From assembly GCF_000284095.1 (NCBI RefSeq), contig NC_017068.1, positions 1,488,001 through 1,552,000 of the forward strand: DNA of 64,000 nucleotides. Reading direction: 5' to 3'. The notes below the pieces were generated by a model. It made no database searches. It was not told where the DNA came from and worked only from the letters and a program-made list of their open reading frames with translations. The DNA is from Selenomonas ruminantium subsp. lactilytica TAM6421. Its GTDB lineage: Bacteria > Bacillota > Negativicutes > Selenomonadales > Selenomonadaceae. The position numbers were made by a program, and so were the translations under genes. This document shows positions 21,724-56,355 of this stretch, piece by piece (positions within the stretch are counted from its first letter, which is position 1; each line of letters starts with the position of its first letter).

Positions 21724-22395
21724 ATGTACAAGAAGAGATTATCACCCGAAGAGAAAATCCACTTCATTGAAAAGTATAAACGTGGAGAGGGCAGTTATGC
21801 CTCCATAGCCGCGGATGCAGGCGTTGACAGCAGATCCTTCAGGCAATGGGTTCGTAACTATGATGCTTGCGGCCCGGATGTATTCTTCAAACGACATCAT
21901 CAGCGCTATTCTGTTGAATTTAAGGAAACTGCTATCCACGATTATCTTTCTGGCGTGGATTCACAAGATGCTATATGCCGAAAATACGGACTTCGTTCGC
22001 GGAGACAGCTACAAGACTGGATTATGAAGTATAATAGTCACGAGGAACTTAAACCATCCGGTACAGGAGGGAGCACCATCGTGACTAAAGGCAGAAAAAC
22101 TACATTTGATGAACGGGTATCCATTGTAGAGGATTGCATTGCAAATGGCCGTGATTATGCTTTGACGGCGGAGAAATTCGATGTTTCTTACCAGCAGGTC
22201 TATACCTGGGTCAGGAAATATGACCAAAAGGGAATCGAAGGCCTCAAGGACGGCAGAGGCCGCAGGAAGCCTGAGTCTGAGATGAACGAGCTGGAACGGC
22301 TCAGATATGAAAACCGCATGCAGAAGGCTCAGTTGCTACAAAAGCAGATGGAGATAGATTTTCTAAAAAAACTCGAGGAATTGGAAAGGCGGTGA
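21724..22395 (+). CDS. IS3 transposase OrfA, two HTH domains
   Basis: 223 residues. Two HTH_23/28-type domains: KIHFIEKYKRGEGSYASIAADAGVDSRSFRQWVRNY and, after a second partial one (QDAICRKYGLRSRRQLQDWIMKY), FDERVSIVEDCIANGRDYALTAEKFDVSYQQVYTWVRKY. The C-terminal leucine-rich coil (NELERLRYENRMQKAQLLQKQMEIDFLKKLEELE) is typical of OrfA of the IS150 group and mediates multimerisation. It ends in an overlap with OrfB, probably joined by frameshifting at the AAAAAAC run near 22364 in IS150-type elements. Confidence 0.85.
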   Translation: MYKKRLSPEEKIHFIEKYKRGEGSYASIAADAGVDSRSFRQWVRNYDACGPDVFFKRHHQRYSVEFKETAIHDYLSGVDSQDAICRKYGLRSRRQLQDWIMKYNSHEELKPSGTGGSTIVTKGRKTTFDERVSIVEDCIANGRDYALTAEKFDVSYQQVYTWVRKYDQKGIEGLKDGRGRRKPESEMNELERLRYENRMQKAQLLQKQMEIDFLKKLEELERR

Positions 22396-23306
22396 TACTA
22401 GACAGAACTCGTAATACGGCTGCCTACCGGGCGATACTGGAGCTCAGCAGTATCTGTAAGGATTATCCAGTCAAGGCGTTATGCAGGTTGGGCCGTGTAA
22501 CCAGGGCTGCGTATTACAAATGGCTTCACAGGAAGCTGGGACAAAACGAAGAAACGAACCAGAAGCTTGCTGCCCTGGCAGAATCAATCCATAAGGAGCA
22601 TCCAGATATGGGCTACCGAAGGATTCGAGATAAGATTGAGCATGACCATGGCCTGCATGCTAATGACAAGCGTATCCTGCGTATATGCCGCAAGAAGAGA
22701 CTGCGCTCCGTAATAAAAGGACGTCACAACTGTTGCACCAGGCCTGCTGTTGATCCATACTATACAGCAGAGAATGTGCTCAACAGGGATTTCCATGCAG
22801 ATAAATACAACCAGAAATGGGTTACGGATGTGACCGAATTCAAGTACTTTCCTGAATACGGAACCGTTAAAAAGGTATATCTGAGTGCCATCCTTGACCT
22901 CTGTGATCGCCGGCCTGTTGCCTATGTTATTGGTGACAGCAACAATAACCAGTTGGTATTCCAAACCTTTGACAAAGCTCTTGAAGCCAATCCAGGGGCA
23001 CATCCCTTGTTTCATAGTGACCGTGGCTTTCAGTACACCAATAAGTTGTTCCGCGCCAAAATTGAACAGGCCGGTATGACACAAAGCATGTCCCGTGTAG
23101 CACATTGCCTAGACAATGGCCCCATGGAAGGCTTCTGGGGTATCTTGAAGCGCGAGATGTACTACAGGCGCAGATTTACTTCCCGGCAAGAGTTGGTTGA
23201 GTCAATTGAGGAATATATAAGATATTACACTTATGACAGACCACAGCGTCATTTAGGCATACGAACCCCAAGTGAGTACCACGAAAAACTGGTTGGAGCT
23301 GCATGA
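22392..23306 (+). CDS. IS3 transposase OrfB (DDE integrase)
   Basis: 304 residues from GTG 22392. An HTH_21 segment (HPDMGYRRIRDKIEHDHGLHANDKRILRICRKKRLRS) is followed by the rve core. Catalytic acids are seen in KWVTDVTEF, HSDRGFQYT and EGFWGILKREMYY. The C-terminal YIRYYTYDRPQRHLGIRTPSEYHEKL is typical. All motifs intact. Confidence 0.88.
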   Translation: MILDRTRNTAAYRAILELSSICKDYPVKALCRLGRVTRAAYYKWLHRKLGQNEETNQKLAALAESIHKEHPDMGYRRIRDKIEHDHGLHANDKRILRICRKKRLRSVIKGRHNCCTRPAVDPYYTAENVLNRDFHADKYNQKWVTDVTEFKYFPEYGTVKKVYLSAILDLCDRRPVAYVIGDSNNNQLVFQTFDKALEANPGAHPLFHSDRGFQYTNKLFRAKIEQAGMTQSMSRVAHCLDNGPMEGFWGILKREMYYRRRFTSRQELVESIEEYIRYYTYDRPQRHLGIRTPSEYHEKLVGAA

Positions 23307-26637: not shown

Positions 26638-27416
26638 TTAGCACAAATAAAACTGGAAGACGCCGGATCCGGCGGTGCGGGAGCGGATCTGATCGTGGCC
26701 CGCAATCTCCTGCGCAGCGCCGCTGCCGGCGTGGCCCAGCATGGGGCCCATGCCCGGGAAATCCTGATTTCCATGAAGGCTGTGGCGGAAGGAAGACTGC
26801 CGTTGCCCATCTTGGGGGAAAAGAAATTAAGAGCGGTTTGCCAGGCCTTTGGCATCGGGACTCGGGGACAGAGCTCGGCAAGGCTTCTGGGCAAGCTGGC
26901 GGACGTTTTACTGGCGGACTTATCAAGAGCCCTGCCGGAGGATTACAAGACCATTCGGGCCCTGGCGCCTAAGGAGCGGCAGGAGGTCTGGGACAAGCTG
27001 GACATCGTGCCCATCAGCGCCTATCAGGAGGTCTTTGATGCCTACCATCGTACGGGGGTGGGGACGGACGGAGATTACCGCAGCATCCTGAAGGCCTTCC
27101 TGCGCTGTGGTCTGGCCTTCTGCTTCACAGGGGTGGTGGCCTCCAATATCGGCACGGATGTGCTCTTTTATGCCTATGACTATCGCCATAGTAATATCAA
27201 GGATACGGAAAAGCTGGCCCGCAAGATCGTTACCCGGGCCATCGAGAGTTTTGCAGCCCGCCGGTGCAGGGTTCGGCGGCGGTGGAAAAGTTCCTGAAGG
27301 AGGATACCAGAGAGCTTCTGGGTGCCGTGATGACGGTCAATACCAATGCCCGGGAATTGGGGGAGAAAATCGTGGCGGATATGAAACTTGCCCGACAGAA
27401 ACTGGGCTGGAGGTGA
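26638..27416 (+). pseudogene. cooS: Anaerobic CO dehydrogenase catalytic subunit (CooS) remnant
   Basis: The frame reads GSGGAGADLIVARNLLRSAAAGVAQHGAHAREIL, LGEKKLRAVCQAFGI, LAPKERQEVWDKLDIVPISAYQEVFDAYHRTGVGTDGDYRSILKAFLRCGLAFCFTGVVASNIGTDVLF, a good match to the N-terminal half of Ni-Fe CooS. The preceding cluster B/D cysteines (CxxC...C) are missing; there is no start. After NIGTDVLF the sequence switches to unrelated coding sequence (YRHSNIKDTEKLARKIVTRAIESFAARR, then in another frame VEKFLKEDTRELLGAVMTVNTNARELGEKIVADMKLARQKLGW), with no C-cluster or Ni ligands. The region is distinctly GC-rich compared with the flanks. It is inactive. Confidence 0.75.
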
Positions 27417-27420
27417 ATCT

Positions 27421-27867
27421 ATGCGTAGACTTTGCTTGTTGTTCTTGCTGCTGGCGGCGGTGTTGACGGCTGGCTGCAGCAATCCTTTGGCGGACCGCAG
27501 CGCCCAGGGCAGTCAGGGGCGGACGGTGCGCATTGCGTACCTGCCCATCACCCATGCCCTGCCGCTGTTTGCTGAAAAGGAACTTTTAAGTGCGGACGAT
27601 AATGTGCAGATTGAACTGGTCAAATATGGCTCCTGGCCGGAGCTCATGGACGCCCTGAATACGGGGAAGGTGGATGGTGCCTCGGTGCTCATCGAACTGG
27701 CGGTCAAGGCTCGGGAGCAGGGGATTGGCAACAACCTCCGGGCGGACTGGCTTATGGCGGCCATCCTGACCATCGGGGTGCTGGGGCTTTTGCTGGATGG
27801 CGGCGTGCGGCTGCTGGAGGGGCGGATTTACCGCCTCTGGGGAATGAAGAAAGGAACTAGCTTATGA
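27421..27867 (+). pseudogene. ABC transporter: binding-protein N-terminus fused to permease C-terminus
   Basis: From ATG 27421 (GGAGGTGAATCT upstream), residues 1-100 are the N-terminus of an NMT1/SsuA-like lipoprotein: signal peptide with lipobox LTAGC, then RTVRIAYLPITHALPLFAEKELL, ELVKYGSWPELMDALNTGKVDGASVLIELAVKA. From about residue 103 the protein becomes LRADWLMAAILTIGVLGLLLDGGVRLLEGRIYRLW, the last transmembrane helix and tail of the cognate BPD-type permease. The roughly 1.3 kb that would encode the rest of both proteins is missing, and the fusion is in frame. No transport function can remain. Confidence 0.8.
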
Positions 27868-28191: not shown

Positions 28192-28575
28192 TCAATTCCT
28201 TTTTTCTGTTTGTTGAAGTTTCTTCATAAAATCATGGGCGAAGTCGAGAACCAGGGCGCGGGTTTCAGGAGGGAAGGAAAGGAAGGTAAGCAGTAGGAGC
28301 TGTTCCCGGTCGGAGAGGGAAAGTTCTTCAGAGAGCTGCCGGACGAGGTCGGGGGTGCGGTTGATGAACATATCCCCAGTTCCGTGGCGCAGGTATTCTT
28401 CGCTTATATTAAATTCATTGACCAGCTGAGAGATAACACGCTCCGTGATGGGGCGTGTTTCTTTTTCGTATTGGCCAATGGTGGTCTGGCTTAGATTTAT
28501 GCGGGCACCGAAATCCGTTTGATTGAGGTTCAAAGCCTTGCGGATATCTTTTAAGCGTTTGCCTATGCTCATCAT
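28192..28575 (-). CDS. XRE-family transcriptional regulator
   Basis: 127 residues. An HTH_3 domain occupies residues 5-60 (IGKRLKDIRKALNLNQTDFGARINLSQTTIGQYEKETRPITERVISQLVNEFNISEEYLRHGTG). The C-terminal 50 residues are helical (RQLSEELSLSDREQLLLLTFLSFPPETRALVLDFAHDFMKKLQQ), an oligomerisation-type tail. The start may be ATG 28575 or 28572. It diverges from a second XRE gene, and each has its own promoter in the 240-base intergenic region. It probably represses its own promoter, in the way of phage-like or plasmid-like regulators. Confidence 0.82.
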   Translation of the reverse strand: MMSIGKRLKDIRKALNLNQTDFGARINLSQTTIGQYEKETRPITERVISQLVNEFNISEEYLRHGTGDMFINRTPDLVRQLSEELSLSDREQLLLLTFLSFPPETRALVLDFAHDFMKKLQQTEKRN

Positions 28576-28593
28576 ATCCCTCCTCGTGACTAC

Positions 28594-28622
28594 AGTATAG
28601 GTTATATGTTAGTGAAATGCAA
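28594..28622 (-). promoter_or_regulatory. Promoter of the minus-strand XRE gene
   Basis: On the minus strand TTGCAT (28617-28622) and TATACT (28594-28599) are spaced by 17 bases, about 20 bases before the start. Confidence 0.55.
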
Positions 28623-28639
28623 TAAAATGGGATAATGTC

Positions 28640-28668
28640 TTGTAATTGTAAGTGAAAGACACTATAAT
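28640..28668 (+). promoter_or_regulatory. Plus-strand promoter between the XRE genes
   Basis: TTGTAA and TATAAT are spaced by 17 bases. AGTGAAA occurs next to both divergent promoters (near 28611 and 28651) and could be an operator half site. Confidence 0.5.
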
Positions 28669-28825
28669 TATAGTTATAATGTACTAGAAATACAGAAAAT
28701 CACTAATTGAAGCGTCATACGAAGGTAGAAAGCATATACTTGACGTAATACGGCGGCTATATGCGAAACAAAAGGCTGTGGAAATGCGATAATTATTATA
28801 GGCAGAATGTAAAGAGGTGGACACT

Positions 28826-29104
28826 GTGGGAATTCGCCGGGATATTTTTTATCGACAGATTGGCGCCAAAATCGCATATTATCGCACTTTGTACGGCATG
28901 GAGCAGAACCAGCTGGCGGAGAAGGTGCATATAAGCCAGAGCACCCTGAGCCGCATTGAGCGTGGCAAGTATGGGGAGAATATATCTATATCGTTGCTGT
29001 TGGATATTGCAGAGGGGTTGGAAATCGACCCTTCTTTGTTGACTATATTTTCCAGTTTGGAAAAGAGCATGTGGACTTATCAGGCGTATGCTGATAGCTG
29101 GTAA
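28826..29104 (+). CDS. XRE-family regulator, short
   Basis: 92 residues from GTG 28826, chosen over GTG 28817 because AAAGAGG lies at the right distance. HTH_3 domain from residue 9 (IGAKIAYYRTLYGMEQNQLAEKVHISQSTLSRIERGKYGENISISLLLDIAEGLEIDPSLL). It lies 46 bases upstream of the flagellin gene on the same strand, so it may be transcribed with it or regulate it. Confidence 0.78.
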   Translation: MGIRRDIFYRQIGAKIAYYRTLYGMEQNQLAEKVHISQSTLSRIERGKYGENISISLLLDIAEGLEIDPSLLTIFSSLEKSMWTYQAYADSW

Positions 29105-29150
29105 GGAGTAAGAAACGGCCCAGGGAGGGGCGGACAAGGAGGTAGGGGCA

Positions 29151-31250
29151 ATGGCGATGACAGTAAAGAACAACCCAACGGCCACGTTGGTCTTGGGGGA
29201 GCTCAATAAAAATGTTTCAAAGCTGGGCAAGCAGTTGTCTAAGGTGGCAAATGGTCAGAAAATTGTGAGTGTAGGCGATGGGACTGCGGACTACAGCATT
29301 TCGGAGAGGATGCAAGCACAGATACGAAGCCTTAGGCAGGACATAGATAACACCAAAACTGGCCGTTCTATGTTGCAGGTGGCTGAGGGCGGCATACAAG
29401 GGATTGTGGATGAACTGCGGGAAATGAAGCAGCTGGCTATCAATGCGGCCAATGATAGCAATACGGATGCAGACAGAGCTACCATACAAAAAGAGTTTGA
29501 TGAAAAGCTGAAACAGATAGATGATATTGTGGCGACTACTAACTATAACGGAAAACTCCTGTTGAATGGCGAATATGGGCGTTGGCATACGGCTATGGTT
29601 ACTGATAATCCCAATGGTAGTAGTAATATCGTAAGTACGGGGGTAATTGAACCAAGTGGTACGCCGATTACTCTTGCCAGTGGAAATCACACCATAACCA
29701 CTGCAGGTGTATATGTATTAGGGACGGGGTTTACCGGTGACATCACTATTGCTGATGGCTTATCAGGTGTCAAAATAACGCAGTCTAATTCTGCTCAGCT
29801 TACAGATGTACATATTATCGGACCCACCTCAGGAAATGCAAATTTATGGATTGAAGGACTCAATATCAAGAATACTACTGACCAATCTTGCATAAGATTT
29901 TCTGGTAGTGACAATGTACTTTCTATAAAAGGTAACAACAACATAGACTATAGCTCTTATATGGCTAGCGGCTCTGTTTCTAATGAAAAGGCAACAATAA
30001 ATGTTGGAGGGGGGCTTACCATCGAGGGAACAGGCACCTTGGAAATGATAAGTACACATACATATAGTGCAATGATTGGTACAGATAATAACGAAATAAG
30101 CAATGCTGATTTAACCATCAATAGTGGTACGTATGTATTGACAGGTACTGATAGTCGTCAAAATGTTCTTAATAGTGCTCGTGCTGGAGCTGTCATTGGT
30201 TCAGGAATTTGCGGCAGTATAGGAGATATTACTATAAATGGTGGAACATTTGATATTTTTACTAGTGGTGATGCTGCTGCCATTGGTTCCTCTATGGGGG
30301 TCTCTTATATGATTAATAGCGGTCTTGCTGGAGGTGGCGATATAACGATTAGGAATGCTAATATAACTGCTGTGGCTGATGGAGGTGCCTGTATTGGAAG
30401 TGGTGTTGACAATACCATAGGTAATATTACGATTGAAGATTCAATAATCCACGCTGAGAATAAAGCATTGAATCATACGGTATTAGCGAATGGAATCCCT
30501 TGGTTGCAATACCTTATTGGTAGTGGTGCAGGCATCGGTAGTGGCTCGTATCGTTACTATTCTGATGGCGCCAATGCAGGAGATATAGTCATTAGAAATT
30601 CAGAAATATTTTCTTCTAGCAATAGAGGGGCTGGTGTAGGTAGCGGTTATAAGAGTTACGCAAAAAACATTACTATTGAGAATGTGACTGGTCAAATTAC
30701 TAGTATAAAAGGGGAAGATATTGGCAAAGGCTTGGAGGGTGGGGTTGGCACAATAAATATTAGCGGCTATCCAGAGCCTACACTTCACGAAACCAGCATT
30801 AGTGGCACACCTCTTAAGATTCATACTGGTACTAAGGCCAACCAGCGTATCAACTGCTATATCGAAAACCTTGGCACCAAAGCTCTTTTCAACGTCAAAA
30901 CCGATGAAGAACTGGAAAACCTTGCCAACGTCCGAACCCGTGCCTCAGCCCAACGGCTGCTGGGAAGTCTCACTGACCCCAGCGTTGAAGGCCCGCTGGA
31001 CAAGGCCATCAACTACGCCCTCAACGAAATGACCCAGGTGGGCTCCTACATCAACCGCCTGGAGCAGACAGAAAATACCCTCACCGTCAATCACGAAAAT
31101 ACCACCAGTTCCGAGAGCACCATCCGCGATGCGGACATGGCCAAGGAAATGACGGAATACACAAAGAGCAACGTCCTCGCCCAGGCCGCCCAGTCCATGC
31201 TGGCCCAGGCCAATCAGAATAGCAGCAGCGTGCTTTCACTGTTGCAGTAA
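29151..31250 (+). CDS. Flagellin with a large beta-helix-like insert
   Basis: 699 residues from ATG 29151 (AAGGAGG upstream). Residues 1-140 are the flagellin N-terminal D0/D1 coiled coil (NPTATLVLGELNKNVSKLGKQLSKVANGQKIVSVGDGTADYSISERM ... DDIVATTNYNGKLLLNG). The last 110 are the matching C-terminal D1/D0 (RLLGSLTDPSVEGPLDKAINYALNEMTQVGSYINRLEQTENTL ... NVLAQAAQSMLAQANQNSSSVLSLL). Between them, about 420 residues replace the usual variable domain with repeating strands and turns: GDITINGGTFDI, GDITIRNANITAVADGGACIGSG, GNITIEDSIIHAE, GDIVIRNSEIFSSSNRGAGVGSG, KNITIENVTGQI. This is a parallel beta-helix pattern with recurring IGSG turns. Such folds occur in adhesins and polysaccharide-binding proteins. 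The filament would carry it on its surface. No flagellar gene lies near. Confidence 0.85.
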   Translation: MAMTVKNNPTATLVLGELNKNVSKLGKQLSKVANGQKIVSVGDGTADYSISERMQAQIRSLRQDIDNTKTGRSMLQVAEGGIQGIVDELREMKQLAINAANDSNTDADRATIQKEFDEKLKQIDDIVATTNYNGKLLLNGEYGRWHTAMVTDNPNGSSNIVSTGVIEPSGTPITLASGNHTITTAGVYVLGTGFTGDITIADGLSGVKITQSNSAQLTDVHIIGPTSGNANLWIEGLNIKNTTDQSCIRFSGSDNVLSIKGNNNIDYSSYMASGSVSNEKATINVGGGLTIEGTGTLEMISTHTYSAMIGTDNNEISNADLTINSGTYVLTGTDSRQNVLNSARAGAVIGSGICGSIGDITINGGTFDIFTSGDAAAIGSSMGVSYMINSGLAGGGDITIRNANITAVADGGACIGSGVDNTIGNITIEDSIIHAENKALNHTVLANGIPWLQYLIGSGAGIGSGSYRYYSDGANAGDIVIRNSEIFSSSNRGAGVGSGYKSYAKNITIENVTGQITSIKGEDIGKGLEGGVGTINISGYPEPTLHETSISGTPLKIHTGTKANQRINCYIENLGTKALFNVKTDEELENLANVRTRASAQRLLGSLTDPSVEGPLDKAINYALNEMTQVGSYINRLEQTENTLTVNHENTTSSESTIRDADMAKEMTEYTKSNVLAQAAQSMLAQANQNSSSVLSLLQ

Positions 31251-31351
31251 AATTGAGAAAACACCTCCATCAGATTCCCGTTATGGGCTGATGGAGGCTG
31301 CTCTGGAGTTTGAATGTTTGAGGATTTAGTGTTATCATTAACGTATAGAAA

Positions 31352-31493: not shown

Positions 31494-31517
31494 GGCGGGG
31501 AAGTTCCCCGCCTTTTT
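31494..31517. terminator. Rho-independent terminator
   Basis: GGCGGGG and CCCCGCC with a 5-base loop, followed by five T residues. It ends the plus-strand flagellin side. It abuts the end of the minus-strand DUF1902 gene. Confidence 0.8.
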
Positions 31518-31723
31518 CATTTGCTCGGCAGAAGATGTTGATTTGATTCGATAATCTCTGGGGCGGTAACACTAATTCGATTGATGAGTTCGTCCAGTGA
31601 TTCTGCTTCCAGAGCTAAAGGAATATCATCACAGATGGCTACCCAGACATTAGCTGCATCGTCCCATATCAAGTTTACCGTGTATTCGGCGTGCTTGTAG
31701 TAGTTTTCGCCGTAAAATTTCAC
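31517..31723 (-). CDS. DUF1902 family protein
   Basis: 68 residues from GTG 31723. The sequence YTVNLIWDDAANVWVAICDDIPLALEAESLDELINRISVTAPEIIESN is the DUF1902 pattern, a HicB-like single alpha/beta domain. HicB proteins are antitoxins, but DUF1902 genes often stand alone, and no HicA partner (small dsRBD-like protein) is seen within 300 bases upstream. The alternative longer frame (to 31795) runs through GC-rich repeat sequence and is not credible as a start. Confidence 0.7.
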   Translation of the reverse strand: MKFYGENYYKHAEYTVNLIWDDAANVWVAICDDIPLALEAESLDELINRISVTAPEIIESNQHLLPSK

Positions 31724-31744
31724 AGTTGCATGCCCCCCACCATC

Positions 31745-31860
31745 CTCAAGAGGACTAGCTTTGCGTCGCCGCCTACGGCGGTCCCCCGCCCCCAAGGGGG
31801 CGGACTGAAATGCTCTATAGCTCTGCCAAAATCTGGCACGGTCTCCCGTTCCCCTTGGTG
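31745..31860. repeat. GC-rich hairpin-containing intergenic repeat
   Basis: CGCCGCCTACGGCGG and CCCCGCCCCCAAGGGGGCGG are adjacent short hairpins, followed by GTCTCCCGTTCCCCTTGG. The composition is unlike the neighbouring genes. The rest of the stretch to 32010 contains no gene I recognise. Confidence 0.4.
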
Positions 31861-32020
31861 GAGGACTTTTCCTCTAGCTATACTCACGAACCATAAAATA
31901 TGCCATTTGGTCGTCCACAGCTGTTTGCGCAACCATACACTACTATGGGGGCGGCAAACTACTAACAGGCGGCGAGTTAATATCTCCCGCCTCATGCGAC
32001 GCGGAACTAGTCACCTTGGG

Positions 32021-32063
32021 AAAAGGGGCTGTTGCACGTAATCAACGTGCAGCAGCTCCTTTT
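32021..32063 (-). terminator. Long terminator hairpin
   Basis: AAAAGGGGCTGTTGCACG pairs with CGTGCAGCAGCTCCTTTT, about 18 bp with one or two mismatches. On the minus strand it ends with a run of T. It lies inside the last codons of the minus-strand adhesin remnant, indicating that the original end of that gene was slightly upstream. Confidence 0.7.
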
Positions 32064-33215
32064 CGCATGCAAAAAAACAATCCCGGGGCTTGAATGCCTC
32101 GGGATTAAGTGTAGAATTTAGGTATGCACAAACTAAATTCACAGAAAGATTATACGTCTTTCGGAGGGAGTTATCAAGTATCCCTTCCTCAACGTTCTTG
32201 ATATTTTCCTTGGCCACGCCTTTATTCTTGGCCACACCACCGGTGACATCACCATCTATCTGGCCACTGATATTATCCCCGCCTTCATTGATGGCATCGT
32301 CCTTGTCCGTGTCAGGGTCAGGATCGAGATCAGGATCGGGATTAGGCGTAGAGGTGGCTGTGCCTGTGGTTACGAGATATTTGAGGTTCCCGCTTTCAAA
32401 GTAGGCATGGCCTTTGCCGGTTTTGCCGTTGGCATCGGTGAAGTTCATGCCGTCCGGCCCGCCGATGGAACCCCCCACAGAGGTGCCGAAGGCATTGACC
32501 AGCGTCATGATGTCGCCGTCACTGCGGGTACCGCCGGTAGTAAAGTGGATTTTGCTGGTGTCAATGGCGGCCTTTTCAAAGGAAATATTCGTGTATTGCG
32601 TGCTGTGGTCAATTAGTGCACCGCTGGTCAGCCATTCCACATCCCCAAAGGACAGCTTGCTGGCTGCTGTGTTTACCACATTGAGCAGGACGTTTTTATA
32701 GCTGTTGTTTTGGTCGATAGCCACCTCATGGTAGGTGTTGTAATAGATGGTCACACCATTGAGGGTAGGGGGATTTTCTGTATTCTTTAAAATCAGATTG
32801 GGAGTCTCGCTGTTCAGGATGGTACTGTTCTCGGCGGAGTATTTCAAATCCAGTGTGGCAAAATCGTTTTCCTTATTGGAGGCCAATAATGTCATGGTGC
32901 CGGGGTCTTTCTGCGCGAAAAATGCTGTGGTAACACCTGTGATATCCAGCTGGCCGTAGTTTTGGAAACTGCCGCCGCTAAGCACCAGGGCTTCGGTCTG
33001 CCAGGCCATATTATCGGCCAGTTTGATGGTGGCAAAATTTTTTACTGCACTGTATGCCATACTGGCTGCCGTATTGATGCCGTCCAGTATCAGGGTATTG
33101 CCAGTGGTCACATCATAGTTATTAGAGCTACAGTAGCCACCTTGAAGATTACTGCTGACCGTGGCATTTTTCAGGGAAATGGTATTGTTGATGGCGGGGC
33201 CCGTATACTGCGATT
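32064..33215 (-). pseudogene. Adhesin/autotransporter-like passenger fragment
   Basis: The minus-strand frame is open from about 33215 to a stop at 32011 without a proper start. The sequence is a beta-strand-rich repeat protein (NTISLKNATVSSNLQGG, NTLILDGINTAASMAYSAVKNFATIKLADN, SGGSFQNYGQLDITG, KLSFGDVEWLTSGALIDHSTQYTNISFEKAAIDTSKIHFTTGG). A Pro/Asp-rich linker follows (NPDPDLDPDPDTDKDD), which is typical of large secreted adhesins. The linker leads to an abrupt end after NVEEGILDNSLRKTYNL. Both the signal peptide half and the outer-membrane barrel are missing, so only an internal piece remains. Confidence 0.65.
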
Positions 33216-33887: not shown

Positions 33888-35201
33888 ATGCAGGATTTAC
33901 TGACGCAAAAGGACCAAGTCAATGAGCAGCTTGCTCGCTATGGTGTGAAATTCGGCATCTACAAGGATGGCAAATTCAATGAACGCCTGTTTCCCTTCGA
34001 TCCCATTCCCCGGCAGATTGAGGCACGGGACTATGAAATGCTGGAAAAAGGCCTGCGCCAGCGCGTTACGGCCCTTAACCTGTTTTTGGCTGATATCTAT
34101 GGCAAGAAACGGATTCTGCGGGATAGCATCATCCCGGAGGAATTTGTCTTCTGTTCTCCAGGATATTTGGCAGAATGTGAGGGGATCAAGCCGCCCAAGG
34201 GCATATACAGCCATATATCCGGCATTGATCTCGTTCTGGGCAAGGATGGTGTCTGGTATGTATTGGAGGATAATCTGCGCATACCCTCAGGGGCTTCCTA
34301 TCCGCTGATTGCCCGCAGACTCTGCCGCAACTGCAGCCCGCGCACCTTCCGCAGCAATAATATCCGGGACAATCGGAACTATGGGGCGCTATTGAAGCAG
34401 GTGATGGATGAGGTAAACACCGGCGGCATCAATGTCATCTTTACCCCGGGGCGTTACAACGCCGCGTATTTTGAACATTCTTACTTAGCAGAACAGTCCG
34501 GGGCCGTGCTGGCGGAAAGTGCCGATCTGTTCGTGGATCAGGGCGTGCTTTATTATAAAGCCAGCCGGGATCCGGTGAAGGTGGGTTCCATCTATCGTCG
34601 TGTCAGTGATGAATATCTCGATCCGCTGTGTTTTGAGCCAAGTTCCCTAATCGGCGTGCCCAACCTGATGGACGCCTACCGGGCCGGCAATGTGGCCATT
34701 CTCAACGCTCCGGGCAATGGTGTGGCCGATGACAAGGGCATCTATTATTTCGTGCCGAAGATGATTGCCTATTATCTGGAGGAGGAGCCTATATTGCATA
34801 ATGCGCCCACCTTTTTGCCATATTTCCCGGAGGATATGGCCTATACCATGGAGCATATCCATGAACTGGTCATCAAGGATGTGGCGGAGGCCGGAGGTTA
34901 CGGCGTGATCTTCGGGGAAAATCTTTCCCCGGCGGAGCTGGAAAAGCTCAAGGAGGCAGTGCGCCAGGAACCGCGGCGCTTCATCGCCCAGACGGTTATC
35001 GACTTTCAGGATCTGCCGGTTTGGGAGGACGGTGCTCAGGTCATGCGCAAGGCGGATTTGCGGGCGTTTGTGCTGACGGGAGAGAATGTCCGCGTCTGGC
35101 CCAGCGGCCTTACTCGTTTTTCCCGCAATCCGGACAGTTTCGTAGTGAATTCTTCTCAGGGAGGAGGCTTTAAAGATACATGGATCATGACATCTCTATG
35201 A
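33888..35201 (+). CDS. Circularly permuted ATP-grasp protein
   Basis: 437 residues. This is the CP_ATPgrasp family (DUF404/DUF407 type). The characteristic order is seen: GVKFGIYKDGKFNERLFPFDPIPRQIEARDYEMLEKGLRQRVTALNLFLADIYG, GIDLVLGKDGVWYVLEDNLRIPSGASYPL, a central GINVIFTPGRYNAAYFEHSYLA, and at the end LVIKDVAEAGGYGVIFG, RRFIAQTVIDFQDLPVW, KADLRAFVLTGENVRVWPSGLTRFSR, closing NSSQGGGFKDTW. These enzymes are thought to ligate an amine to a carboxylate using ATP, making peptides or amides. In many genomes the gene is followed by alpha-E and transglutaminase genes, as here. ATG 33888 follows GAAAGGATG. Confidence 0.9.
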   Translation: MQDLLTQKDQVNEQLARYGVKFGIYKDGKFNERLFPFDPIPRQIEARDYEMLEKGLRQRVTALNLFLADIYGKKRILRDSIIPEEFVFCSPGYLAECEGIKPPKGIYSHISGIDLVLGKDGVWYVLEDNLRIPSGASYPLIARRLCRNCSPRTFRSNNIRDNRNYGALLKQVMDEVNTGGINVIFTPGRYNAAYFEHSYLAEQSGAVLAESADLFVDQGVLYYKASRDPVKVGSIYRRVSDEYLDPLCFEPSSLIGVPNLMDAYRAGNVAILNAPGNGVADDKGIYYFVPKMIAYYLEEEPILHNAPTFLPYFPEDMAYTMEHIHELVIKDVAEAGGYGVIFGENLSPAELEKLKEAVRQEPRRFIAQTVIDFQDLPVWEDGAQVMRKADLRAFVLTGENVRVWPSGLTRFSRNPDSFVVNSSQGGGFKDTWIMTSL

Positions 35202-35875
35202 CGAAAATCAATAATCTCTTTTGGCTGGGGCGCTATTCTGCCCGGGTGGATACCACCATCCGCTATCTGGCCAAATGGTATGATTCCATGCTGGATGGCA
35301 AGGTCATTGACTTCCAGCATTTTTGCCAAAGTCTTGATATTCCTTGTCATTATATCAGTGCCTATCAGTTCATGCGCTCCTATATTTTTGAGAAGAAAAA
35401 TCCCGATTCCGTGCGTTCAGCGGCGGAGATCATGCTGGGCAATGGCATGGTGCTGCGGGAAACCATTGGCAGCAATACCTTGTCCTATCTGCAGATGACG
35501 GTTTACGCCATGGACAAGGCTGCCGTCACCACCAATCCCTGGCTGGGCTTCCAGAAGGTCTGCGATCTGCTCATGGCTTTTGCGGGGCGTTGCGATGTCT
35601 ATATCGAAGATCAGGGAATCCGGGACATCATCAAGTGCGGAGCCAGCATCGAGCGCCTGTCCCTGTATGTCAGTTTTGACTATCCTGAGAAAACTCTGCT
35701 GAAGGATCTGCAAAAGCTCATAGCCTATATGGAGCGGTTGAGCTTGCCTGTGCCAATCGATGAAGATGCTCTGTCTCTGCTGAGAGCGCAGAAAGCTCGT
35801 CTGGAGTGGGGATTTTCCCTGAGTGTTTCCCCACAGGAGCTGCGGGCGGCTGTGGAATCGTTGGTCCAGTTGTAA
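35180..35875 (+). CDS. Alpha-E domain protein
   Basis: 231 residues, overlapping the ATP-grasp gene by 22 bases. The N-terminus TKINNLFWLGRYSARVDTTIRYLAKWYDSML is the alpha-E start (LFWxGRYxERAE), with the glutamate of RAE replaced by Asp (ARVD). An all-alpha protein throughout: AEIMLGNGMVLRETIGSNTLSYLQMTVYAMD, AFAGRCDVYIEDQGIRDIIKCGASIERLSLYVSF. The usual binding partner of permuted ATP-grasp enzymes, without known catalytic motif. Translational coupling to the ATP-grasp gene is likely. Confidence 0.85.
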   Translation: MDHDISMTKINNLFWLGRYSARVDTTIRYLAKWYDSMLDGKVIDFQHFCQSLDIPCHYISAYQFMRSYIFEKKNPDSVRSAAEIMLGNGMVLRETIGSNTLSYLQMTVYAMDKAAVTTNPWLGFQKVCDLLMAFAGRCDVYIEDQGIRDIIKCGASIERLSLYVSFDYPEKTLLKDLQKLIAYMERLSLPVPIDEDALSLLRAQKARLEWGFSLSVSPQELRAAVESLVQL

Positions 35876-35886
35876 GGAGGATGCCT

Positions 35887-36663
35887 ATGCGTGAGCTTGA
35901 CTTCCAATTTTCCTGTCAGCTTTCCTTTTCCGAATCAGTGACGGATCATGCTTTCCTGCTCCGCTGCCTGCCAAGGCAGGTCAAGGGGCAGGAACTACTT
36001 TCTCTGGACCTGCAGGTGATGCCGGAGGGCGTGCAGCTCTTTTCCGGCAGGGATTCTTTTGGCAACCGGACCATGACCGGCTGGGTGCCGGAAGCACATA
36101 AGGAATTATCCTATCAGGTCAGCGGTGTTGTCCGGCGGGATGATATGCAGGAGGAAGCACCTGCAGTCATGCCCTGCTTTTACTATCCTTCCGCGCTGAC
36201 CAAACCTTCCCCGGAAATGGCAGCATATCTTGAAGAACTGCAATTGACGGGAAGTCCCAGTCAAAAGGCGCAGGCATTGACTGTTGCCCTGAACGAACGT
36301 TTGGCGTATGTTCCTGGTTCTACCAATATATGTACTACCGCTGCGGAGGCCTTTCAGCAGGGGCAGGGAGTCTGTCAGGATTTTGCCCATATCTTTTTGG
36401 CGCTGGCACGGCTGGCAGGCATTCCCGCCCGTTATGCCTGTGGTCTGCCAGTGGGGGAGGGCGCTACTCATGCCTGGGGCGAGATTTGGCAGGATGGTCA
36501 CTGGCTGGGCTATGATCCCACCCGGAACCGCCTGGTGGATGAAACGTATATCACGCTGGCTGTGGGCCGGGACTATGGGGATTGTCCCATTGAGCGGGGC
36601 GTATTCCATGGGACGGCCTGGCAAACCCAGCAGGTATTCATGCAGGTCAGGGAAAAGGAATAG
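35887..36663 (+). CDS. Transglutaminase-like peptidase
   Basis: 258 residues, start chosen at ATG 35887 since AAGGAGG abuts ATG 35881. The N-terminal beta domain (LDFQFSCQLSFSESVTDHAFLLRCLPR, Bact_transglu_N) is followed by the transglutaminase core with the catalytic triad: Cys in QGQGVCQDFAHIFLALARLAGIPARYACGLP, His in GATHAWGEIW and Asp in WLGYDPTRNRLVDETYITLAVGRDYGDCPIERGVF. It can cleave or form isopeptide bonds. Together with ATP-grasp and alpha-E it makes the well-known three-gene module. Confidence 0.9.
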   Translation: MRELDFQFSCQLSFSESVTDHAFLLRCLPRQVKGQELLSLDLQVMPEGVQLFSGRDSFGNRTMTGWVPEAHKELSYQVSGVVRRDDMQEEAPAVMPCFYYPSALTKPSPEMAAYLEELQLTGSPSQKAQALTVALNERLAYVPGSTNICTTAAEAFQQGQGVCQDFAHIFLALARLAGIPARYACGLPVGEGATHAWGEIWQDGHWLGYDPTRNRLVDETYITLAVGRDYGDCPIERGVFHGTAWQTQQVFMQVREKE

Positions 36664-56199: not shown

Positions 56200-56276
56200 G
56201 GCCCGGTAGTTTAGTTGGTTAGAATGCCGCCCTGTCACGGCGGAGGTCAGGGGTTCAAGTCCCCTTCGGGTCGCCA
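56200..56276 (+). tRNA. tRNA-Asp (GTC)
   Basis: 77 bases with encoded CCA. The anticodon stem-loop CCGCC-CTGTCAC-GGCGG carries GTC; the T-arm is AGGGG-TTCAAGT-CCCCT; acceptor GGCCCGG pairs with TCGGGTC (one G-U pair at each end). Confidence 0.95.
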
Positions 56277-56279
56277 CTT

Positions 56280-56355
<76 letters not shown>

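Follow-up and report, generated by a model that had tools for sequence, protein, structure and literature searches.

A flagellin with a predicted parallel beta-helix outer domain, encoded behind a divergent pair of XRE regulators in Selenomonas ruminantium

Flagellin outer domains vary, and one class of them carries a protease. The flagellin described here resembles the FliC/Hag type (PF00669 and PF00700) in its D0/D1 ends, in their terminal positions and, by homology, in the surfaces used for export and polymerisation, but differs by a 411-residue outer domain predicted as a beta-helix and by a divergent XRE switch as its partner. In flagellinolysin, a functional domain is inserted in the flagellin hypervariable region (PMC5595980). 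The present protein is similar in that a foreign domain occupies this region and in that two paralogues in its genome hold an HExxH motif, whereas its own insert is a predicted beta-helix in which a regular-expression search found no HE[LM]TH motif. Beta-helices are also found on the bacterial surface in SRRP (5ny0), PfbA (3zpp) and the Vag8 passenger (7akv), with the difference that their carriers are cell-wall anchors or autotransporters, and their identity to the insert is 6-13%. Among solved structures, the best match with sequence identity above 15% (21%) is Cthe_2159 (PDB 4peu/4phb, PF14262), a cellulose/pectin-binding protein of C. thermocellum, which shares the beta-helix fold but is not a flagellin. 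Cthe_2159 domains are described as beta-helices that bind cellulose and polygalacturonic acid, in a family transferred from bacteria to rumen fungi (PMC6712302), and a second source links beta-solenoids distantly related to this family to adhesive regions (PMC9210967).

Divergent XRE pairs sharing a conserved control region are characteristic of CI/Cro-type phage switches, and the same arrangement is present here at 10/10 loci holding upstream sequence. In Bacillus subtilis, SinR and SlrR are two XRE-type regulators that control alternative states and act on flagellin. The locus differs from both systems in that the putative switch is coupled, through its position, to a flagellin cargo that can change. 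A search of the open-access literature, which does not extend to subscription papers and preprints, returned no paper on a beta-helix flagellin or an XRE-flagellin switch, and to our knowledge neither a class of beta-helix flagellins nor an XRE port with changeable flagellins has been reported. Flagellins with inserted domains are already known; within this limited search, the beta-helix class and the XRE port appear to be new.

The locus was analysed within a stretch of 64,000 nucleotides (hereafter the window) from the genome of S. ruminantium subsp. lactilytica TAM6421. The open reading frame at 29151-31250 (+), with an ATG start, encodes a flagellin of 699 aa and is the last gene of a unit of about 3.1 kb, in the order XRE-2, XRE-1, flagellin, which has the following features:

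28192..28575, minus strand: XRE-2, a 127-aa helix-turn-helix regulator directed away from the flagellin (HTH_3, E 9.3e-12, over the cut-off)
28576..28816, no strand: shared intergenic control region of about 240 bp, alignable across 10 loci of 9 genomes
28611..28704, no strand: three AGTGA/TCACT half-sites (28611, 28651, 28700), possible operators read from the sequence
28640..28668, plus strand: candidate sigma-70-like promoter TTGTAA-17-TATAAT towards XRE-1 (consensus scan)
28732..28764, no strand: 33-bp imperfect palindrome GCATATA...TATATGC, a possible operator (arms 75% complementary)
28817..29104, plus strand: XRE-1, a 95-aa helix-turn-helix regulator with a GTG start (HTH_3, E 1.2e-12, over the cut-off)
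29136..29142, plus strand: AAGGAGG, a likely ribosome-binding site 8 nt 5′ of the flagellin ATG (from the sequence)
29151..29576, plus strand: flagellin D0/D1 N end, residues 1-142 (Flagellin_N)
29577..30809, plus strand: predicted beta-helix outer domain, residues 143-553, 411 aa (AlphaFold2 models and fold comparison)
30810..31250, plus strand: flagellin D1/D0 C end, residues 554-699, plus the stop codon (Flagellin_C and GC3 shift)
31264..31297, plus strand: 10-bp perfect hairpin CCTCCATCAG/CTGATGGAGG (from the sequence; BLAST similarity to the units of three other genomes, G191, G192 and G193, runs to 31297)

The preliminary description of this DNA, made from its letters, had recognised a flagellin with conserved D0/D1 ends, and both Pfam domains are indeed well above their cut-offs: Flagellin_N at residues 12-141 (E 1.7e-25, 90.1 bits against 26.6) and Flagellin_C at residues 616-698 (E 6.3e-20, 71.7 bits against 23). 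Pfam places no domain between the two, and the insert is assigned to no family by Pfam, NCBIfam or PHROGs. The recurring IGSG and DITI patterns noted in it at that time far exceed those of 2000 shuffles, since [IV]G[STK][GSD] occurs eight times within residues 143-553 (shuffle mean 0.84, maximum 5) and [DN][IL][TV]I seven times (mean 0.17, maximum 2), including four exact IGSG and three exact DITI. Also borne out were a lower GC content and a different codon use in the insert, with a change at about 30,830: GC3 is 0.54 over residues 1-142, 0.285 over 143-560 and 0.72 over 561-699, the rise starting at about residue 560, i.e., at 30,830, and third positions are enriched in G in the N end but in C in the C end. 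The genome holds ten flagellin-type genes, the window gene among them, one of which (C1:2639734-2641638) encodes a second beta-helix flagellin. Because the insert of this paralogue is low in GC3 too (0.33), the shift is partly a property of such inserts. The C end of the paralogue shows no rise (0.41), and the C-end GC3 pattern is special to the window gene and a few paralogues.

Comparison with the orthologue of the nearest relative, G191, which belongs to another genus, gave a dN of 0.30 and a dS of 1.38 for the insert (dN/dS about 0.22), while dN is 0.05 in the N end and 0.03 in the C end (dS 0.71). Amino acid identity is 64% in the insert and 92-94% in the ends. The gene is therefore real and coding, and mosaic in tempo.

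The full-length protein was modelled by AlphaFold2 with a 17-sequence alignment as input, leading to a mean pLDDT of 78.8 and a pTM of 0.57. The insert, mostly at 80-96, appears as a ladder of short strand pairs from residue 173 to 569. The D0 helices are low in pLDDT in this model; in the fold comparison, flagellin chains match both ends at Z of about 20-21.7, in agreement with a helical D0/D1 fold. Modelling of the insert only (residues 160-575) gave a pLDDT of 85.4 and a pTM of 0.87, with 265 of the 416 residues at 90 or above. With this model, VIA-align, on which the fold-family assignment rests, retrieved beta-helix proteins as all its top matches. The Vag8 passenger (7akv; Z 22.1, 294 aligned, 6% identity) and Cthe_2159 (4peu; Z 21.6, rmsd 3.3, 226/250 residues, 21% identity; 4phb, Z 21.5) are tied at the top, sequence similarity being seen with Cthe_2159 only, and are followed by PL6 lyases (7o7a, Z 19.8), the SRRP adhesins of L. 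reuteri (5ny0, Z 19.4) and PfbA (3zpp, Z 18.4). Foldseek returned no beta-helix match for the insert model at E <= 1e-3, the best being at 1.3e-2, and the profile of alignment A2 found nothing at E <= 10 among PDB sequences. Alignments A1 and A2 have 17 rows each, 3 of the 17 being partial ORFs.

The insert is thus predicted with confidence to be a parallel beta-helix, related in fold to Cthe_2159 and perhaps, distantly, in descent. The beta-helix-like domain first put at 420 residues becomes an insert of 411 residues; a standard D2/D3 fold, from which it had been set apart, did not appear in the structure prediction, and the likeness that had been proposed to adhesins and glycan-binding proteins is found again in a predicted fold common to PfbA, SRRP, Cthe_2159 and PL6 lyases. 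Although the folds agree, the window protein has no match to PF14262 at E <= 1, and is therefore not filed as a member of the Cthe_2159 family. The PF14262 profile matches 2 of 17 relatives (best E 1.9e-4), and the family was absent from the 41 genomes searched.

Searched with a profile of the insert, 103 of the 189 genomes of the same family, Selenomonadaceae, give a match at E <= 1e-5. Of 300 genomes sampled from the class, 32 match at E <= 1e-10, all of them from this family. The domain was found in 122 ORFs (108 flagellin, 8 RTX and 6 other), a figure in which overlapping loci repeat genes and which is hence not a census. No insert was found in phages, and no plasmid record covers 80% of the window protein. 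The domain is also present, in one to seven copies, in giant ORFs devoid of flagellin ends in 10/10 regions picked for their long ORFs, all from one genus. The giant proteins (L166-L175) are 1,200 to over 2,900 aa long. Of these ten length-selected regions, 7 show two RTX motifs or more, and HemolysinCabind is above its Pfam cut-off in the four proteins tested. An HE[LM]TH motif is found in 3 of the 10 regions (L166, L168 and L171, of another genus) and also in two paralogous flagellins of the TAM6421 genome (G000; L123 and L125, C1:2622776-2624602 with AHELTHAV and 932130-933902 with AHEMTHAL). Judging from these sequences, a set of payload domains is common to flagella and RTX proteins, suggesting that the two take their surface modules from a common pool. 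A quick tree was made of 69 domain copies; it places the window insert together with 18 other flagellin rows, whereas its paralogue has an insert that lies in another group, near RTX-type copies, with weak support. A single capture of the domain by flagellins was considered and not retained: the tree needs two label changes and is also compatible with one.

Upstream of the flagellin, XRE-1 ends 46 nt before the ATG, and both regulators match phage repressor families. Among the matches listed, 31 XRE-1-like loci were examined, 11 at 82% identity or above and 20 at 70% or below. A flagellin starts 30-52 nt downstream in 9 of the 11 close loci listed, compared with a flagellin directly downstream in 1 of the 20 distant ones. 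A divergent XRE-2 homologue is present at all ten close loci that hold upstream sequence; in the remaining one (L186, in G194) the contig ends before XRE-2, and the G194 motif is on another contig. The same order of XRE-2, XRE-1 and flagellin is seen in L073 (Selenomonas ruminantium SIG239), a record possibly of the G193 genome itself.

The intergenic region is itself well conserved. The 22-bp motif AATACGGCNNNTATATGCNAAA has just two exact copies in the 3.63-Mb genome, one in each beta-helix flagellin unit, and a single exact copy in each of the nine other genomes with XRE-1, and is absent, at up to 2 mismatches, from the ten genus members examined that lack XRE-1. The palindrome keeps the form GCATATA...TATATGC in 10/10 loci, and its core has only two exact copies in the genome. 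TTG-N20-TATAAT is found in 9 of the 10 aligned intergenic loci; the promoter match does not in itself point to function. The AGTGA/TCACT sites, three in the window (a number reached in 9 of 500 shuffles), are three in 5/10 loci (window included), two in 4/10 and one in 1/10. A sigma-28 promoter directly 5′ of the flagellin was also sought; the TAAA-N14..16-GCCGATAA scan reached at best 9/12 matches at all ten flagellin genes, therefore none is claimed, and TGCGATAA at 28785 is only suggestive of such an element.

This architecture suggests, by analogy with CI/Cro, that XRE-1 and XRE-2 may repress each other, and hence that expression may be on or off. We propose that the two divergent regulators, which share one control region, set flagellin expression, which would be on only in some cells or conditions.

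The unit can be delimited by comparison with its relatives. Over 19 kb around the G191 unit, BLAST similarity to the 64-kb window is limited to 28200-29917 and 30560-31297, a span bounded by the end of XRE-2 on one side and the hairpin 3′ of the flagellin on the other. With the G192 unit, matches are found at 28200-29096, 29391-29569 and 31110-31297. The hairpin is not followed by a T-run and is absent from the terminators listed by the scan. G193 shares 186 bp more, at 31551-31736, and the shared block may therefore be larger there. According to these alignments, the unit seems to behave as a block of about 3.1 kb placed in different surroundings.

The site of the paralogous unit indicates what is exchanged. 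Its neighbours (families 29 and 30) are common to three other genomes, G004, G012 and G009. Relative to G004, identity is 96% in the XRE-2/intergenic part and 85% in the XRE-1 part, drops to 48-65% where the flagellin begins and is 93% again over 5030 bp further downstream; hence G004 has kept the switch and the downstream 5 kb with a flagellin carrying another insert. In G012 and G009, the switch and the neighbours are kept and other genes stand in the place of the flagellin. Because 2 of the 11 listed loci hold the switch without a flagellin, it is not specific to flagella. The genes behind XRE-1 at these two loci (L220 in G012 and L221 in G009) encode proteins other than flagellins, one with a tRNA_anti-like domain. 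The nine listed flagellin-linked loci comprise four with a beta-helix (the TAM6421 genome twice, G191 and G194) and five with other inserts (G002, G004, G010, G192 and G193). These comparisons suggest a conserved port with a cargo that is not conserved, flagellins being apparently exchanged between species behind the same switch. Such a unit would be a concrete case of regulator-driven flagellin switching, in which no DNA inversion was seen. The cargo flagellins of G004 and G010 carry a long PDPPEP repeat before the C end, and G010 holds two flagellins of the PDPPEP type in a row behind the switch.

Taken together, we favour, as somewhat probable, an explanation in which a glycan-binding beta-helix flagellin is placed under CI/Cro-type XRE control within a mobile unit whose cargo is exchanged. 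The window protein would be an alternative flagellin whose outer domain is of the kind that surface proteins use to bind carbohydrates or to adhere. As expected from its family, it would leave the cell through the flagellar apparatus and polymerise through its D0/D1 ends, and the beta-helix would then be displayed in many copies on any filament that contains it. In the rumen, the most likely ligands of this domain would be glycans, of the plant cell wall or others, and the 3.1-kb unit of XRE-2, XRE-1 and flagellin would move among chromosomal sites, with flagellins exchanged between species. Glycan binding is suggested by the fold and by the presence of the domain in RTX proteins. In the rumen, attachment to plant fibre is important, and if the widespread beta-helix class binds as the proteins that it resembles do, the filament itself would become a candidate glycan-binding surface there. 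In a wider and more tentative version, to which we give a little less than an even chance, a domesticated, phage-type bistable switch would serve as a port for surface display, its XRE pair and operators remaining fixed while flagellins with unrelated outer folds are swapped and payloads are shared with RTX proteins, so that each cell would decide whether its filament is coated with a glycan-binding beta-helix, giving rise to phase-variable adhesive flagella among rumen Selenomonadaceae.

No conserved binding site was identified in the insert. In the A2 alignment, none of the D, E, K, R or H residues is invariant; 88 columns are conserved at 70% or above, and the charged ones among them are E167, D244, D312, H558, K562 and position 573, the last three of which fall in the D1 end and not in the insert proper. 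The main rival to glycan binding, to which the scarcity of charged conserved columns lends support, is surface variation: the insert would be a changeable coat against flagellum-binding phages, antibodies and grazers, with no particular ligand, and the switch and the cargo exchange would serve antigenic variation. By dN, the insert evolves at about 6 to 10 times the rate of the ends, flagellins with dissimilar inserts are found behind this one switch in 5 of the 9 listed flagellin loci, and cargoes are swapped at one site, as would be expected of such a coat. However, the beta-helix core is under purifying selection across genera, as seen in the 88 columns and in the dN/dS, and giant RTX proteins make use of this domain as well; this points to a function held in common and not just to variation for its own sake. 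Surface variation is hence rather unlikely to be the explanation in its own right, and may act together with binding.

The outer domains of some flagellins make lateral contacts, and the beta-helices could in the same way pack into a sheath-like outer layer, stiffening the filament in the viscous rumen fluid. This mechanical role is improbable, as insert length and coil number vary widely among relatives (their open frames span some 550 to 900 aa) and the domain also serves in proteins that are not part of the flagellum. Pectate-lyase-like folds are common in non-enzymes too, which weakens the case for an active polysaccharide lyase or hydrolase, i.e., a glycan-acting enzymatic flagellin comparable to flagellinolysin, even though the fold matches include PL6 lyases and GH28 polygalacturonases. 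The HExxH motif of the two paralogous flagellins resembles that of the proteolytic flagellins described in PMC5595980. A2 has no invariant charged residue, and the charged columns conserved at 70% or above within the insert are E167, D244 and D312; the enzymatic role was therefore disfavoured and is judged quite improbable, and binding is likelier than catalysis. Finally, that the XRE pair is unrelated prophage debris lying beside the flagellin by chance, as its phage repressor families and the IS-type ORF pair and gene fragments of the region might suggest, is hardly credible given a flagellin linkage in 9 of the 11 listed loci, across 10 genomes, two genera and several chromosomal sites, and a conserved control region.

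Other features of the window deserve a brief description. Upstream of the unit, two overlapping ORFs at 21724-23306 resemble an IS3-type transposase pair, a name given from the sequence, and 26695-27867 holds two partial ORFs, both probably decayed, the first of the Prismane/CO-dehydrogenase kind (158/513 profile positions) and the next NMT1-like. Downstream of the flagellin, a DUF1902 gene at 31517-31795 (-) is similar, in part, to the stretch downstream of the G193 unit, and a 366-aa ORF at 32011-33111 (-) that has no Pfam match resembles a piece of an autotransporter passenger. Genes for a circularly permuted ATP-grasp, an Alpha-E and a transglutaminase protein lie in a row at 33888-36663. 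Further downstream, a stretch of 107 bp at 56200-56305 is 93% identical to stretches in G012 and G009 and is possibly a dispersed repeat.
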